Shown here: piece after piece, positions 4,779-36,568 of the stretch
How positions within the stretch are numbered: the first letter of the stretch is position 1
How the letters are laid out: each line of letters opens with the position of its first letter
Source: a virus
DNA length: 43,332 nt
Direction: 5' to 3' (one strand)
Virus record (IMG/VR): IMGVR_UViG_3300027969_000170
Span: 1 to 43,332 of that record
Made by a program: the position numbers and the translations under genes
The notes under the pieces: generated by a model
What the model saw: the letters and a program-made list of their open reading frames with translations, nothing else
Database searches by the model: none
Told to the model about the DNA's origin: nothing

Positions 4779-6212
4779 TTATAATCCTTTTATTTTTTTA
4801 ATCTCGTTTTTAATTTTTTCAACTTTAAGTTGATATTCTTTAGATTCTTTTTTATATATTTTACGGTTAGTATATAACTCAGTTAAAATATCTTTTAATA
4901 CTGAATCTTCTTTTTTGTAAATTGCACCAGTTACTGATACTATATTGTCTGAATTTTTTAAATTGTTAGCTTCTTCAATTGGCATTTTGCCAATAAATGA
5001 TTCAGGACTTACATTGATCTGTCTCATTATTGAAGGATATAGAGAAGCGAAATCAAAACAAGCTACTGCTTTATGCATACCTACAACAGGTGCTTTTACA
5101 TAAGCACCTGTATATTGAGTATCTTTAGAATCATCTATTTTATTTTTAGCCATTACTTTCTTTTGAGAAAGAAATTTACGGCATAACATAGATTCAGTTA
5201 TTGCAATAGGAGAAGAAGCTTTATAAATCCCTATTCTGCACATATTTGCAATGGTGAGTGCAATATCCATTGTTTTTAATTTTTGATGAATTAAATACAC
5301 TAAACATGTATCAACTGCATTATAGTATACGTATTTAGTGTATTCTTTTTCATAAAGATCTTGTATAGTTCCATTATATTTAATTTTCTTTAAACCTACT
5401 ACAGCTTCAGCAGTTGAGTCTAAAGTAAAATTCTCTTTAATGTCTATAGTCTTATCCCATTTTCTATAAAGTTCTAAATAATCCATTACTCCTACATGAA
5501 GAGGTAAATTATCATTTCCCCATAGCTGTTTAACTGGGCTTGATATTGAAGGATCTAATGATAACTTAAATGCTCTATTTACTAGATACTTCCAGTCAAA
5601 ATTAATAAAATTCCATCCAGTAACCATTGGAAATTTAGATACAAATGAACTAAAAAACGTATATAGTAGATCATATTCAGAATTTAATTTTTTAAAGATA
5701 AAATTAAATTTAACATTATGATTTTTAAAATATTCATCTAAGTCTTTTTGTATTTTTTGCTGTTCACTAATAACCAAGTCATTTGTAGCTAAAACAATTA
5801 CTTGCATATTAGGAGTTACTATAGCGATAGTAGTTACTGGCGTATTTGCTTTTTCAGCTTCAGGAAATCCATCATTAACCTCTACTTCTATATCAACAAA
5901 ATAAACTTTTGGAAAATTATAACCGAAAATCTCTTCTATATCATCATGTGGCAATTCATCTATAAACTGTGTAAGAGAATATTTATCTAAAGATTTAGAT
6001 TTTACTTTTTTTACTGATTTATTATCCCAGTTCGTAAATTCATTTGATTTATTTTTATCTTTATCTGCACATAATTCCCAATTGGCTACATCATCTATCT
6101 TGTACTGCTTGTAATCAGTAACACCTTCTTTATTATAAAAAGATATAGTTAGATTAGAACCTTTCTGTTGTATATCAAGTAGCATATTAATATCCTCTAT
6201 GCTGGCGATCAA
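4779..6212 (-). CDS. 43: Family B DNA polymerase, N-terminal half only (exonuclease plus palm motif A)
   Basis: 477 residues versus about 900 in T4 gp43. The 3'-5' exonuclease domain is intact: Exo I D107/E109 (FVDIEVE), Exo II N201 and D206 ([15 protein letters not shown]), Exo III Y297/D301 (YYNAVDTCL). Motif A is DFASLYPS, with D387 as first catalytic aspartate. The protein then ends in a charged helix ([18 protein letters not shown]) where the fingers would begin. Motif B (K-x3-NSxYG) and motif C (DTD) are absent. No downstream fragment exists: nrdB starts 15 bases later. The other half must lie outside this window, so this is probably a natural split polymerase whose halves assemble. The first 26 bases overlap the upstream dUTPase-like gene, implying translational coupling. 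Confidence 0.9.
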
Positions 6213-9835: not shown

Positions 9836-10327
9836 TTAAATAGAAGATAATAACTTTATAATTTCTTTATCAGTTGATTCTATTTCATCTTTAGGTATTT
9901 TTGCATATTTTAATAAGGTGCTTACAAAATCATACGCAGAATCTTCACTATTAAAAGAATAACTATTCATAGATAAAATTTCACCATAGTTAGAAAACAT
10001 ATCATCAAAAACTGATTTTGCATTTTTGATATATTTCATATTTTCTGATGAAGGAGATATAAATACAGTTACACTATTAATTGCTTCATTAATAAGTTCT
10101 TCTCCTTTTTTAGTTGCACCTTTACCTGCTATATAATAGTCAGAGATCGTATTAAAAAATTCTTTTTTATCTTTATCATTAAGATCAGCTGGAGAATTAA
10201 CACCATATTTTTTTAAGAGTGAAGTAAATATCTCACCATACTCTTTTTGGAGATCAGCCTCGTATAAACTTTTACCTTTTTCTGTTTGTAATGCTTGAAA
10301 CTCTGAAAATTTTTGAATTGATTTCAT
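9836..10327 (-). CDS. Hypothetical protein with possible capsid-targeting N terminus (163 aa)
   Basis: The protein begins MKSIQKFSEFQ, resembling the MKxIKLFExF starts of five other proteins in this window. A possible prohead-protease site, LYE followed by A, lies at 21-23. The rest is helical and charged, with KEYGEIFTSLLKKYGV and KIPKDEIESTDKEIIKLLSSI segments. No enzyme motif, signal peptide or membrane helix is visible. It may be a packaged internal protein; this is the weakest member of the set because the cleavage site is far from the start. A 124-bp AT-rich gap upstream (10328-10451) could hold its promoter, but I see no convincing -33/-7 pair there. Confidence 0.65.
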   Translation of the reverse strand: MKSIQKFSEFQALQTEKGKSLYEADLQKEYGEIFTSLLKKYGVNSPADLNDKDKKEFFNTISDYYIAGKGATKKGEELINEAINSVTVFISPSSENMKYIKNAKSVFDDMFSNYGEILSMNSYSFNSEDSAYDFVSTLLKYAKIPKDEIESTDKEIIKLLSSI

Positions 10328-19443: not shown

Positions 19444-20076
19444 TTATATTCTTTTACCTAAATGAAAACCTATAGCTGCCCCTACTAGTCTACTTGTAAA
19501 TATATCGTATAATAAACCTTTTTCCACACCGAGAGCATTTGCTACTATTTTACCAACACTTTGGCCTAATGCAAAACCTGTTAAACCTCCAACTATAGAT
19601 CCTATCAACCCTTCATCTAATTCTTTTTCCAGCTGTTCAATAGTTTGATCTCCATTTTTATATTTTTTTAAAAACTCATTAACAGCTTCATCTATAATGT
19701 TTTGATCTACAGATTCATTTAGTAACGTATAAAAATCTTCAATATTTCTATTTTCTAAAAGTTCAGATTCTTTTAAAAGATCTTCTCTTCCTAATTGTCT
19801 ATAGACTTCTTTTCTTACTTTTTCCATCTTTTCAGCATAGTCAGGATCATCTTTTCTGTTAAAAACTATTTGTTGAGTTAGACTACCACTTATTTTTTTA
19901 ACATCTTTCTTACGAGTTTTAATTAACCATGCAGCTAAATCTTTTATACCTAGATCTCTAAAGCGACCATTTGCATCAGGTGCATCAGAATCATGCCAGT
20001 CAGGAGAACCTGCTGGCTTTGCTTCATTAATAAAGTTTTTATTTAAAAACTCATTAAAAGTATGCATTTTTTTCAT
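19444..20076 (-). CDS. Putative packaged head protein with capsid-targeting N terminus and glycine-rich membrane hairpin
   Basis: 210 residues. The start MKKMHTFNEFLNKNFINE followed by A resembles a T4 capsid-targeting sequence with a prohead-protease site after E18. A soluble region with SPDWHDSDAPDANGRF and KDLAAWLIKTRKKDVKKI follows. The C terminus has two hydrophobic glycine-rich stretches, LIGSIVGGLTGFALGQSVG (about 158-176) and SRLVGAAIGFHLGKRI, split by a charged linker. Glycine-zipper hairpins of this kind insert into membranes. One idea is an internal protein that helps DNA cross the inner membrane; a structural role near the tail is the alternative. Lies between the adhesin and tail-tube-like genes. 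Confidence 0.75.
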   Translation of the reverse strand: MKKMHTFNEFLNKNFINEAKPAGSPDWHDSDAPDANGRFRDLGIKDLAAWLIKTRKKDVKKISGSLTQQIVFNRKDDPDYAEKMEKVRKEVYRQLGREDLLKESELLENRNIEDFYTLLNESVDQNIIDEAVNEFLKKYKNGDQTIEQLEKELDEGLIGSIVGGLTGFALGQSVGKIVANALGVEKGLLYDIFTSRLVGAAIGFHLGKRI

Positions 20077-32443: not shown

Positions 32444-33127
32444 CTACTTTTTAATTTTCATTGATTTAGAGATTTCTATAAGATCCTTTTTCAGGTTACC
32501 GAGCTTGTATCTTCCAGATTCTATCGTATCCCATGTTTTTTTCAAATCAGCTTTGTCCCTTTTGTAATGATCTACGTATTCGTTCCAGTGATAATCTTCT
32601 ATACCTTCCATTTTTTTTACTGCCTTTTCAAAATAAGTTTCGAAATCTTCAGTTGAACAGAGTCTTTCTATTTCCAAAGCATCTTTTATCGTGTGCCATT
32701 TGTAACCTGTCCCGTCATAATAATTAAAGAAATACTCAAAAACTCCTTTATTTTTTCCATCAAGTTCTATACCAGCAGCACCTGCAGCACCATAAACTAG
32801 CATTCTGCCACCGATGTATTGGATCAAAGAACTTAGGTTATAACCATCTTTCTTAACTGGAAAGTCTCTGCCTACATCAGAACCTACCGCCACTTTGCTG
32901 CTTGCCCATGGCTTCCAATGGTCAGAGGGCTTTGAGCTTTCCCATGCACCATCACTAATCTGACCAGAAATTTCGCATTCAAATAAATTTTTCTGCGAAA
33001 GAGTTGCCACTGTGAGTGTACCTACTCCGTTGTAGCCTTCTGCCTCATTAACGAAATCATTAGAAGGATATACGCTTTCATTATTGGCCTCGTTAATAAA
33101 ATCTTCAAATAATTTAATGTGTTTCAT
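32444..33127 (-). CDS. Putative packaged head protein with capsid-targeting N terminus (227 aa)
   Basis: Starts MKHIKLFEDFINE followed by A, the best match in this window to the T4 capsid-targeting sequence. A second similar site, FVNE followed by A, is at 25-28. The rest has no family I recognise: WKPWASSKVAVGSDVGRDFPVKKDGY, then IGGRMLVYGAAGAAGIELDGKN and a helical C terminus (EDYHWNEYVDHYKRDKADLKKTW). Glycine-rich AAGAAG may be a small membrane-active or loop segment. It is more GC-rich than most genes here. It ends the cassette, followed by a terminator. An effector or DNA-associated protein delivered with the genome is possible. Confidence 0.75.
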   Translation of the reverse strand: MKHIKLFEDFINEANNESVYPSNDFVNEAEGYNGVGTLTVATLSQKNLFECEISGQISDGAWESSKPSDHWKPWASSKVAVGSDVGRDFPVKKDGYNLSSLIQYIGGRMLVYGAAGAAGIELDGKNKGVFEYFFNYYDGTGYKWHTIKDALEIERLCSTEDFETYFEKAVKKMEGIEDYHWNEYVDHYKRDKADLKKTWDTIESGRYKLGNLKKDLIEISKSMKIKK

Positions 33128-33148: not shown

Positions 33149-33751
33149 TCATATTTTTGGCTTCCCTAACATTATTTTGTTATGTGGATGTCCGGCTAAC
33201 ATTCTACGATACCAAGAATTGCCAGAAGTCGATAAGCCATCTGGATTTTTACCTAGCCATTCTACAGATTTTCCTAAAACTTTTTCAACGTCCTCTTGAG
33301 AATCTACTTGTGGTACATTATACTTATTTATCAAAATTTCTGCAATTTTACCAGAAACTTCTACGTAATAACCTAATTCTTTAAGTTCTTTACCTCTTTG
33401 TTCTAAATATTCACGCTTAGCATCTCTAGTTCCATCATGGCCTACCCCTGTATATTTAATTCCAAATTTTGTTTTTTTACCAAAAATGATAATATCAAAA
33501 TCATTGGAATTATGTATATCTATACCAGCCCAGTAATCCCAGTCAGGATCATTAAAAACATCGTTAGGACTAGTTACTTTACTATGACCTCCAATTTCAG
33601 CATACGCCGTATTAATCAAAGTAAATAATTCGTTAGCTAATTCTGGATGTTTATGATGATCAAACTGAACTGGTTTCCCTCTCTTTGGATTAAAGATTTC
33701 ACCGCTGGTAGATTCAGTTAGCCAACTACTAAAGTTTTTTATAAATTTCAC
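33149..33751 (-). CDS. Putative packaged protein, possibly GNAT-fold, with capsid-targeting N terminus (200 aa)
   Basis: Starts MKFIKNFSSWLTE followed by S, fitting the shared N-terminal peptide with a predicted cut after E13. The body has LFTLINTAYAEIGGHSKV, DYWAGIDIHNSNDFDIIIFGKKTKFGIKYTGVGHDG and LKELGYYVEVSGKIAEILI, then WYRRMLAGHPHNKIMLGKP at the end. The order of helix, strands and GHDG loop is reminiscent of phage proteins annotated as N-acetyltransferase-like. I cannot confirm an acetyl-CoA loop. If it is a GNAT, it could modify host proteins or nucleic acid after injection. Same cassette as the flanking MKxIKLFExF proteins. Confidence 0.75.
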   Translation of the reverse strand: MKFIKNFSSWLTESTSGEIFNPKRGKPVQFDHHKHPELANELFTLINTAYAEIGGHSKVTSPNDVFNDPDWDYWAGIDIHNSNDFDIIIFGKKTKFGIKYTGVGHDGTRDAKREYLEQRGKELKELGYYVEVSGKIAEILINKYNVPQVDSQEDVEKVLGKSVEWLGKNPDGLSTSGNSWYRRMLAGHPHNKIMLGKPKI

Positions 33752-33775: not shown

Positions 33776-34291
33776 TTATTGATCATGTATGTTTAAAACA
33801 CTATTTTCACTATTTTCATAATCTACATCAAATCCTTTAGAATCAGCTGCATCTATAAATCTATCAAATTCTCTAGTTGGTAAAGTATAAAATACATCAC
33901 CATTTTCATCAAAATAATCTAGTGCTTTACTAAATTGTTTATGTAATAGGTTATCTAATTTTTCATCATTTATTGAAAATGTGATAAATTTATAAGATTC
34001 ATTAATGCCTTTTTCAACTACACCATCATTACCATCCATAGTATCATGTACTGAGTTTAATTGGTCTACTGCTAATGTAATTTGTGAATACATCCAGGCT
34101 GATAATTCCTCACCATTATGCAATCTTTCTAAAATCATTTTAGCATAATCAGCAATTCTTTCTAAATCGCCCATTGCCATTTTTTTAAGGCCATTAACTA
34201 TTTCTTCGGATGATTTATAATCATTTTCATTTAAATAATCGTTAGGTGCAGTCTCTCTCAAGAACTGTTCAAATAATTTTATTTTTTTCAT
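33776..34291 (-). CDS. Putative packaged head protein with capsid-targeting N terminus (171 aa)
   Basis: Starts MKKIKLFEQFLRE followed by T, with a predicted cut after E13. A compact helical domain follows: MAMGDLERIADYAKMILERL, then HNGEELSAWMYSQITLAVDQ and LNSVHDTMDG. I recall this helical module in other marine phage proteins of unknown function. The C terminus (about 105-171) is an alpha/beta domain with SYKFITFSINDEKLDNLLHK and DVFYTLPTREFDRFIDAADS. No catalytic motif. It is likely delivered or packaged with the others. Confidence 0.75.
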   Translation of the reverse strand: MKKIKLFEQFLRETAPNDYLNENDYKSSEEIVNGLKKMAMGDLERIADYAKMILERLHNGEELSAWMYSQITLAVDQLNSVHDTMDGNDGVVEKGINESYKFITFSINDEKLDNLLHKQFSKALDYFDENGDVFYTLPTREFDRFIDAADSKGFDVDYENSENSVLNIHDQ

Positions 34292-34353: not shown

Positions 34354-34815
34354 CTATAATTTCACCATTAAAAGTAGATAATTTAATATTTGATCCCAAT
34401 TTTTAAAACCATCAGTACCAAACTGGATCCATTGTCCTTTAAACTCTGCAGCTCCATTATTAGGTCTATCATCAATAAGATAATCACCCATTAGAAGGTC
34501 TTTTCTGTGAGAAAGTATAAGTCTTTTATGAGCTAATTGGCCTAAATGTTTTTGTACCCATCTGCGTTTAGAACTCCAAGACTCTACGTTTGACCAAGGT
34601 GCAGTACTTAAAAAGAATATATCGTATTTTGTTGATAGTTTTTTGACTGCATCTAAAGATCCATGAATAGGTTCTGGATTTTCAAATAACTCTTTGTCAA
34701 CTGATGTTAATCTCCCTAGATGTTCAACTGCATCAGGTCCATGTCTTTTAATAGCATGTGCTTCGAGGTCTACCATCACTCCATCTAAATCGATGTATAG
34801 TATTTTTTTATTCAT
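34354..34815 (-). CDS. 5'(3')-deoxyribonucleotidase-like HAD phosphatase
   Basis: 153 residues. HAD motifs are complete: motif I D9 and D11 (LYIDLDGVMVDLE), motif II LSTAPW, and motifs III/IV KDLLMGDYLIDDRPNNG. RRWVQKHLG between II and III fits the NT5C family. It dephosphorylates deoxyribonucleoside monophosphates and is common in T4-like phages for nucleotide balance. It is the only member of the 32.4-35.7 kb cassette without the MKxIKLFExF start, so it probably acts in the infected cell. A 78-base AT-rich gap separates it from the kinase gene upstream. Confidence 0.87.
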   Translation of the reverse strand: MNKKILYIDLDGVMVDLEAHAIKRHGPDAVEHLGRLTSVDKELFENPEPIHGSLDAVKKLSTKYDIFFLSTAPWSNVESWSSKRRWVQKHLGQLAHKRLILSHRKDLLMGDYLIDDRPNNGAAEFKGQWIQFGTDGFKNWDQILNYLLLMVKL

Positions 34816-34893: not shown

Positions 34894-35652
34894 TTAAGAA
34901 TTAGCTTTAATCCATTGTTTACCTATATAATTTTGCAAAGGTTTTCTAAGCAATTTAGATACAGCTCCTTCCATTTTTTTAATATTTTCAATGCCTGATA
35001 GAGAATTGTCAATAATAATTATATTTTCAATACCGAATAGATTTTGAAATTTTCCTATATTATTCTGCACAGAATGCCATATTTCTTTAACTAAAGCATC
35101 AGGTAAAGATCTTGATCTATTTGCATTTCTTTCTAGTGCAACGTCTAGAGAAGTGTTTACAAATAACATATATGTATCATACCCTAATTTTTCAATACTT
35201 TCCTTTTTATATTTAATTTTTTCATAATCATCACCAGTTCCATCAATTAACATACCTAACCGATTTTTCATGTATAAATCTAATTTAGCTGCTGTTATTT
35301 TTTTAGCTTTTCCTCTAGGGGATTCAGGCCCTTGTGAAAGAGCATCAAATTCAGCAGGCGACATCTTTGCTAAACTTTTAGGATTTATACCTTTTTTTTG
35401 AAGTTCATATTCAAATGCTTGATCTGAGTTAATAATTTTAAGTCCTGTAGAATATGAAATAGATTGAAAGCTGTGACTAGGTGCTCCAAAAATTTCTTTA
35501 ACGACTCTAGATTTACCAGAGCCTGGTCCACCTGACATAAAAATAACTTTAAGTATATTTTTGTCATATATACCTTCATTAATTAAATTTTTTTCTAGAT
35601 CTGACAAAGAAAGTTTCTTTGTAAAATCTTCAAATAATTTGACGTGTTTCAT
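34894..35652 (-). CDS. P-loop kinase (zeta-toxin or polynucleotide-kinase-like) with capsid-targeting N terminus
   Basis: 252 residues. The start MKHVKLFEDFTKKLS fits the shared peptide, and a site LINE followed by G lies at 23-26. Walker A is SGGPGSGKSR (about 40-49). A Walker B-like hydrophobic strand and LIDGTGDDYEKI follow, then FVNTSLDVALERNANRSRSLPDA with the arginine-rich lid of zeta-toxin and nucleoside or polynucleotide kinases. The region MSPAEFDALSQGPESPRGKAKK is distinctive. It could phosphorylate a sugar nucleotide, nucleic acid or protein. A phage-packaged kinase would act at the very start of infection. Alternatively it simply acts late, with the peptide having another role. 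Confidence 0.82.
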   Translation of the reverse strand: MKHVKLFEDFTKKLSLSDLEKNLINEGIYDKNILKVIFMSGGPGSGKSRVVKEIFGAPSHSFQSISYSTGLKIINSDQAFEYELQKKGINPKSLAKMSPAEFDALSQGPESPRGKAKKITAAKLDLYMKNRLGMLIDGTGDDYEKIKYKKESIEKLGYDTYMLFVNTSLDVALERNANRSRSLPDALVKEIWHSVQNNIGKFQNLFGIENIIIIDNSLSGIENIKKMEGAVSKLLRKPLQNYIGKQWIKANS

Positions 35653-35659
35653 TTTTTAT

Positions 35660-36481
35660 TTAATTATTTCCTCTAGAAGAAGATCTTCCACCACTTGAAG
35701 GAATGCTGCTGCTTGAAGATGGTAATGAAGTCCTTGGTTGAACCGTTGTACTTGGTCTTTGACGACTATATTCAACAGATGGCTCACTTGTTCTTGGAGA
35801 ATATCCTCCAGTAGATGGTATTCTACCCTCTGTTGTTGGATATCGACCTGCTCCACTTCCTTCTACAGAAGGAATTCTTGTGCTTCTTTCCATCGGCATA
35901 TTTCTTCCTGCGGAAGGATTTGTCCTTGGAGTACTTTCAATGGTTCCAACCTCAGGATTACGTGCGCCTGGAACAGGACCAACAGATCCTCCTCCTCTTC
36001 TTGGTCCATAATAGCCATTGGAAGCATCAACAGGCGTTACTGTAGTGTTATTATTATTATTATTGCTTTGACCCCAGTTATTATACCCGTAACCGTTACC
36101 CCATGTTGGCATATAGTTATATGAAGGCATATACATAAATGGTGAACCAACCCATCCAAAACTACTCATAGACATACCTGATCCAAAACGAGAAAATGGA
36201 GAATTCCAGGATGAATAAAATGGATCGTACATACCAAAACTATTCCAGCGGTTGAAATTATTGAAATTAAATACTTGAAGTGGTCTATGAAAACGACGAA
36301 TTCTTGAAGTGTAATAAAAATCATAATCGTTGTAACTATATGAACCTAATCGATTTGATGAAGATGTGGTATTTTTTGTTTTTACAACCTCGTCAGGATT
36401 GTAATAAACATCATCCATTTGAGCACTCATTGGACTGGTAGCCAACAAAGTGAGCACGGTAATAATCAGGGTGTATTTCAT
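35660..36481 (-). CDS. Secreted Pro/Ser/Arg-rich protein of host-like type
   Basis: 273 residues from the chosen start. The open frame extends upstream to 36568, but MKYTLIITVLTLLATSPMSAQ at 36481 is a clear signal peptide and the better start. The mature part begins MDDVYYNPDEV, then YNDYDFYYTSRIRRFHRP and a Tyr/Trp/Asn-rich DPFYSSW..WGNGYGYNNWG region. It ends in a long low-complexity Ser/Pro/Arg/Gly stretch. The DDVYYNP start and SRIRRFHRP are typical of secreted Flavobacteriia proteins, and the gene is visibly richer in GC than its neighbours. A gene taken from a host is likely. Function unknown; possibly outer-membrane or surface associated. Confidence 0.78.
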   Translation of the reverse strand: MKYTLIITVLTLLATSPMSAQMDDVYYNPDEVVKTKNTTSSSNRLGSYSYNDYDFYYTSRIRRFHRPLQVFNFNNFNRWNSFGMYDPFYSSWNSPFSRFGSGMSMSSFGWVGSPFMYMPSYNYMPTWGNGYGYNNWGQSNNNNNNTTVTPVDASNGYYGPRRGGGSVGPVPGARNPEVGTIESTPRTNPSAGRNMPMERSTRIPSVEGSGAGRYPTTEGRIPSTGGYSPRTSEPSVEYSRQRPSTTVQPRTSLPSSSSSIPSSGGRSSSRGNN

Positions 36482-36568
36482 GACAATTATTTTAAACGTG
36501 GAATTAATAGAATCATCTTTTATTACTGCTGTCGTAAAATAGTTGTTAATGTTTCGTAAATAAATCAT

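Follow-up and report, generated by a model that had tools for sequence, protein, structure and literature searches.

Does a phage kinase act only in the cell that makes it, or can it be carried in the head and enter the next host together with the DNA? The question is raised by an open reading frame on the minus strand of the window (the whole stretch of DNA analysed, a virus record of 43,332 bp with 28% G+C). The frame extends over 34894..35652, starts with an ATG at 35652 and encodes 252 aa followed by a stop, the coordinates being exact. The initial annotation had described the product as a P-loop kinase with an arginine-rich lid of the zeta-toxin or polynucleotide-kinase (PNK) type behind a putative packaging tag, and the four elements it named are all present, namely MKHVKLFEDF at residues 1-10, LINE/G at residues 23-27 (a slash marks the predicted cut here and below), GGPGSGKS at residues 41-48 and LERNANRSRS at residues 173-182. 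The window also encodes NrdA, a T4-type helicase (59% identical to that of LR756500.1, an uncultured 462-kb phage), a primase and an ssDNA-binding protein, and no recognisable head genes were seen in this 43-kb fragment. Of 13 related contigs, 5 encode an S77 protease, and G003, a 170-kb contig with the same tag, is one of them.

As far as computation can test it, the initial reading is supported. Pfam matches to Zeta_toxin (7.1e-9) and AAA_33 (2.5e-7) are both past the cut-off, the PHROGs search returns a polynucleotide kinase family (2.6e-6), and the top match of the family profile among PDB sequences is zeta toxin 1gvn (5.2e-6). The AlphaFold2 model, based on an alignment of 26 homologues, has a mean pLDDT of 85.2 and a pTM of 0.82. 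Its best Foldseek match among 350,542 PDB chains is the polynucleotide kinase of C. thermocellum (4jt2, 3.6e-6), with a TM-score of only 0.50 when normalised to the kinase query. Next in rank come adenylate kinases, zeta toxin and seryl-tRNA kinase, with TM-scores of about 0.5. The predicted active site looks competent, since the invariant residues include G41, G42, P43, G44, G46 and K47 of Walker A (residues 41-48; 35509..35532, minus strand as for all features of the kinase), the whole of NSD (N75-S76-D77; 35422..35430), D137 and T139 of DGTG (residues 137-140, equivalent to the zeta EGTG; 35233..35244), and R179 and R181 of the lid RNANRSR (residues 175-181; 35110..35130), where R175 and N176 are kept in 25 of 26 sequences. 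These catalytic residues persist across homologues ~42-59% identical to the window kinase, and in the profile alignment to 1gvn D77 and T139 fall on the catalytic base D67 and on T118. By sequence and model, the P-loop phosphotransferase core of the predicted protein is complete and belongs to the zeta/polynucleotide-kinase class. Mean pLDDT is 40-54 for residues 1-20 and 66 for residues 21-30, and the model is confident from about residue 30, which places the tag outside the confident domain; structure prediction, proposed as a check at the outset, thus yields a competent kinase fold with the tag outside its ordered part. A defence-system identity was rejected, as the PADLOC match to VakA is weak (2e-4) and was read as generic P-loop similarity.

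The leader, as far as its sequence tells, follows the T4 capsid-targeting rule. The T4 internal proteins IPI, IPII and IPIII are loaded via a leader of 10-19 residues in which residues 4 and 7 target and residues 8 and 10 are required for processing, gp21 cutting after L/I-x-E, and such capsid-targeting sequences (CTSs) have been suggested as a possible way for T4-like phages to load various proteins (PMC9026906). The T4 N-termini include MKTFKEFTSTTTPVSTITE/A and MKTYQEFIAE/A (twice), and the targeting pair Y4-x-x-F7 of IPIII corresponds to F7-x-x-F10 in the targeting part of the kinase, MKHVKLFEDF (35623..35652). The predicted prohead-protease site LINE/G (35575..35586), cut after Glu26, agrees with the L/I-x-E rule, and the window has a single occurrence of a DNA pattern for [L/F]INEG, where 0.03 would be expected. 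E26 and G27 are invariant in 26 of 26 aligned homologues, and residue 24, two before the Glu, is L in 12, I in 11 and V in 3 of them. Ahead of this fixed [LIV]xE/G end the leaders vary, as in MKTFQQVQE/G, MKSFYSFLEE/G, MKRIKLFEDFVNE/G, MKHIKLFEEFIEE/G, MSLDKFKDFIDE/G, MAVNSFIQHLSE/G and MIPFILKE/G, all from viral contigs and isolates. The predicted cut site lies 16 residues past FxxF in the window kinase and 3 in its nearest relatives, a difference that counts against the packaging reading. In L144, a distant relative (25% identity), the tag MKKFEEFCKEYLNE is present and the EG-YDP block is not, so that the tag appears to be a module of its own, separable from that block.

Like the T4 internal proteins, the kinase has an aromatic pair three residues apart and then L/I-x-E and a small residue, similar leaders again preceding unrelated cargo. 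It differs from them in that the putative cargo is a conserved P-loop kinase and the leader, at 26 residues, exceeds theirs in length and has the form MKxxKLFEDF. T4 Alt is a packaged RNA-polymerase ADP-ribosyltransferase with the leader MELITE/LFDE; the kinase would share with it the logic of a head-borne enzyme injected with the DNA, whereas chemistry and fold are different and the two sequences are unrelated.

The resemblance to a packaging tag is strengthened by its recurrence on non-homologous proteins. In the window, 6 of 42 ORFs have an N-terminus with the tag and a following LxE, while 200 residue-shuffled controls average 0.175 and reach at most 2; a second scan gave a similar result. 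Besides the kinase they are, all on the minus strand, the ORFs at 33776..34291 (MKKIKLFEQFLRE/T), 33149..33751 (GTG start, (M)KFIKNFSSWLTE/S) and 32444..33127 (MKHIKLFEDFINE/A), recognised by the tag pattern, the ORF at 19444..20076 (MKKMHTFNEFLNKNFINE/A), with a tagged homologue at L004:9255-9812, and a possible case at 9836..10327 (MKSIQKFSEFQALQTEKGKSLYE/A), the weakest of the six, with the site 23 residues in. The tag is matched by 12 of 209 ORFs in G003 (0.6 in shuffles) and by 6 of 15 ORFs near the kinase in the related locus L002 (0.04 in shuffles). Across 80 viral loci around the kinase, a fixed pattern fits 129 of 824 ORFs, compared with 12.4 in shuffles, many of these loci being near-duplicates whose matches are not independent. 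Since loose patterns match many shuffled-control ORFs (12 of 209 in G003), only stricter ones were used; the first pattern was at background in the complete genomes of T4, HTVC008M and Melnitz, and no single regex fits every lineage.

The tagged families near the kinase include an adenylate-kinase family (PF00406; MKTFLEFITE/A), a nucleotidyltransferase seen in relatives (MAYNPKRFSEYLSE/E), an NMNAT/cytidylyltransferase-like protein, to which a Pol-beta-like domain is added in some phages, and DUF6267. The usual order in marine relatives is DUF6267, adenylate kinase, the zeta/PNK-class kinase and the nucleotidyltransferase, with a HAD further on. In G003, a tagged HAD phosphatase, which differs from the HAD of the window, matches a PHROG polynucleotide kinase (1.9e-8), and an acidic 114-aa protein encoded between portal and S77 protease begins MKNLKTFEQYWSSITE/D. 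T4 gene 67, which encodes a prohead core protein, has this position.

Some observations on these neighbours stand on their own. In many marine contigs the adenylate-kinase-family P-loop kinase, unrelated to the zeta/PNK-class kinase, lies upstream of it, with five tag sequences; examples are L010:4464-5048, L029:5125-5724, L059:163-747 and L069:5400-5984. A tRNA nucleotidyltransferase of poly(A)/CCA type (L005:229-1383) has the tag-like leader MALRKFNTYKLMTE/A. Two similar tagged proteins of ~425 aa are encoded at L106:12417-13706 (G003) and L146:12942-14207; the G003 protein has KTDG and EGLVFKYKGKIYKLTG, which resemble nucleotidyltransferase/ligase motifs I, IV and V and find no database support. 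T4 has its protease and scaffold in two genes, 21 and 22, and in G003 a single 711-aa ORF (L105:6202-8337, that is G003:46201-48336) holds the S77 protease together with a long acidic, Glu-rich, scaffold-like region.

Leaders of this type are also found on proteins that mass spectrometry has detected in virions of related marine T4-like phages, all of them cyanophages. S-SM1 virions hold the putative cytidylyltransferase T4-GC190 (PMC3037559), which begins MKKFSAFLNE/A, and S-SCSM1 virions contain an NMNAT (PMC9602691) that begins MKSFLQFLKE/A. For S-CREM2, whose virion proteome is given with coordinates (PMC10665884), the pattern fixed beforehand from the 80-locus scan matches 6 of 49 virion proteins and 4 of 196 others (p = 0.005), or 5 of 27 against 4 of 196 once known structural proteins are set aside (p = 0.0016); with a more compact pattern, the p-values of these two comparisons are 0.16 and 0.03. 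The tagged non-structural S-CREM2 virion proteins include the cytidylyltransferase gp154 (MKNFSSFLTE/A), the APH-like kinase gp14 (VKRFDAFLTE/E), gp13 (MKDLHSFLTE/Q), gp15 (MNFSEFNE/S), gp136 (MQTFSMFFSE/D) and the SAM hydrolase gp6 (MKDFDSFLEE), where gp6 and gp13, like gp12, do not fit the fixed pattern and were picked out by visual inspection. One of the six matches, the baseplate protein gp204, is probably a chance match. Against a packaging role, tagged proteins are a minority of the virion proteins, and the pattern also fits four undetected ORFs, through chance or for another reason. Those who published the proteome were unable to separate packaging from co-purification (PMC10665884), and for the tagged virion proteins the tag favours packaging. 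The NMNAT-like/cytidylyltransferase proteins of cyanophages (T4-GC190) are thus like the window kinase in being nucleotide enzymes with the same type of tag, and they have been detected in virions; they differ in having an unrelated fold, and their tag is unremarked in the papers that report them. A separate observation concerns S-CREM2 gp12 (L120:7704-10313), a Cas9-like virion protein with the tag-like LRFASFMAE/A just past its annotated start; by sequence, packaging of such a nuclease would agree with the CTS route.

A homologue of the kinase itself is encoded within a virion-protein cluster. The one homologue in a jumbo phage is gp53 of Agrobacterium phage Atu_ph07 (AUZ94865, 778 aa; numbering anchored on gp2, gp4 and gp5), in which the kinase is one domain, 34% identical. 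The protein begins MKWNDLNE/A, and the kinase domain follows SEVTE/GVNDKHIFKA. In Atu_ph07, 29 of the 46 products of CDS 31-76 were found in virions (PMC6102473), and gp53 falls inside this cluster. Gp53 resembles the window kinase in having an xVTE/GVND block before the kinase domain and lies in an experimentally defined virion-protein cluster; it differs in that the kinase is one of multiple domains, which are separated by several L-x-E sites. Beyond it, a series of tandem paralogues (L095:41844-49507, gp54-gp60 and beyond) starts with M[KR]WxxLxE and has an invariant YRG...S...E, reminiscent of ADP-ribosyltransferases, a fold that family searches do not confirm. The same identity was rejected for the N-terminal domain of gp53, for which YRG...S...E is the only sign and Pfam, PHROG and PDB give no confirmation.

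Collectively, these data point to a capsid-targeted internal head enzyme, and we infer, with a probability of about 0.7, that the kinase is carried in the head and injected. During head assembly, the F7-x-x-F10 leader would bind to the core of the prohead; cleavage after Glu26 by a gp21-like (S77) protease would then yield, inside the head, a mature kinase of ~226 aa, which would leave with the DNA and act in the first minutes of infection. The main alternative to delivery is an ordinary cytoplasmic phage kinase whose tag is no packaging signal and whose EG block belongs to the fold. Indeed, E26, G27, D30 and K35 run on into the conserved start of the domain, the EG block also occurs inside the 778-aa Atu_ph07 protein, and the conservation of E26, G27 and D30 could serve folding instead of cutting. 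We nevertheless consider a purely cytoplasmic kinase quite unlikely, given that the leader is common to unrelated tagged proteins and disordered in the model, and that tagged proteins are enriched in the measured virion proteome of S-CREM2. The protein might also be packaged mainly for assembly, as an internal head protein with a secondary kinase fold and unimportant delivery; T4 IPIII does affect head assembly (PMC9026906), but the invariance of the active site at ~42-59% identity argues for selected catalysis and makes such a role very unlikely. The kinase is likely a new cargo for the known CTS route, and in the open-access literature we found neither a description of CTS in cyanophages nor a report of a packaged kinase of the zeta/PNK class.

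What a delivered kinase would phosphorylate is a separate matter, and here the zeta/PNK label applies in part: the catalytic core, the Pfam matches and the fold agree with it, and the residues by which zeta toxin holds its substrate are mostly absent. Zeta toxin binds UDP-GlcNAc through D67, T118, R120, E100 and T128, and T121 is nearby (PMC3062530). The equivalents of D67 and T118 (D77 and T139) are invariant in the family, and the kinase further resembles zeta/PezT in Walker A, the [D/E]GTG strand-loop and the profile match. R120, in contrast, corresponds to D141 (where 23 of 26 homologues have K or R), T121 to D142 (Asp or Glu in the family), and E100 and T128 to A121 and K149, two variable positions, and the kinase also differs in its compact lid. 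From the alignment, the catalytic core is one that the kinase has in common with zeta toxin, and the sugar-nucleotide pocket is not. A packaged zeta toxin that phosphorylates UDP-GlcNAc and blocks cell-wall synthesis on entry would agree with the Zeta_toxin and 1gvn matches and with the prediction that MuF-fused zeta-like kinases act at phage entry (PMC5512222). Such chemistry is not favoured by the loss of R120, E100, T121 and T128; moreover, Pfam and PHROG scans of seven other window ORFs, including five that neighbour the kinase, found no antitoxin family, and the neighbours in relatives are nucleotide enzymes and not cell-wall enzymes, so that a delivered zeta toxin appears unlikely. The comparison with PNK is mixed as well. 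Polynucleotide kinases have an Arg three residues past the catalytic Asp. Despite the top PDB fold match and the PHROG assignment, the kinase differs from C. thermocellum Pnkp in having F80 in place of this Arg at +3 from D77 (F or Y in 25 of 26 homologues) and a phosphatase that is a separate gene of nucleotidase type.

This untagged HAD phosphatase (34354..34815, minus strand) is of the 5'(3')-deoxyribonucleotidase type (NT5C, 2e-16; PDB 4l57, 1.4e-11) and lies 79 nt downstream of the kinase, with an equivalent pairing at 98 nt in L002. As a counterpart of the T4-Pnkp phosphatase it was ruled out, being nearer to 5'(3')-deoxyribonucleotidase 4l57. For the substrate we lean, at a little under even odds, away from UDP-GlcNAc and towards a nucleotide or the end of a nucleic acid: the UDP-GlcNAc residues are mostly absent, the kinase has tagged neighbours in relatives that are enzymes of nucleotides and RNA ends, the gene order in marine relatives follows the same lines, and a nucleotidase-type HAD lies beside the kinase in the window and in L002. 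A delivered NAD-replenishing pair, made of a nicotinamide-riboside-type kinase and an adjoining NMNAT-like protein, is highly improbable: neither NR kinase nor NadR is among the best 50 PDB fold matches, and the window has no NMNAT-like neighbour near the kinase. An identity as nicotinamide-riboside kinase was rejected on the same ground, no such fold being among the top PDB fold matches.

If the delivery reading is right, the T4 packaging signal is now seen on enzymes across marine and jumbo T4-like relatives, and the tag explains the otherwise puzzling presence of non-structural enzymes in the virion proteomes of cyanophages. A readable tag would allow injected proteins to be predicted from sequence alone, also in uncultured phages, and the kinase would represent a specific, testable case of enzyme delivery at time zero. 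A broader and doubtful extension is that marine T4-like phages load into the head, and inject, a whole CTS-tagged kit of nucleotide and nucleic-acid-end enzymes, whose members might be the zeta/PNK-class kinase, the adenylate-kinase-like kinase, the CCA/poly(A)- and NMNAT-like nucleotidyltransferases, the HAD phosphatase and the ligase-like DUF6267. The KWDG, EGYV and VKLV motifs of DUF6267 look ligase-like, which makes a ligase at most a candidate identity: its model has low confidence (pLDDT 69), and searches of the PDB by fold and by profile gave nothing. Such a kit, if real, would allow host-nuclease damage or nucleotide depletion to be reversed before phage gene expression.

Two other ORFs of the window deserve mention. 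The one upstream of the kinase (35660-36568) encodes 302 aa rich in Ser, Asn, Gly and Arg; a hydrophobic stretch lies close to its N-terminus, and it has no family match. The DNA polymerase ORF at 4779-6212 (PHROG 2062) has only 477 aa, T4 gp43 being longer, and the polymerase of S-CREM2 is likewise annotated in two parts.
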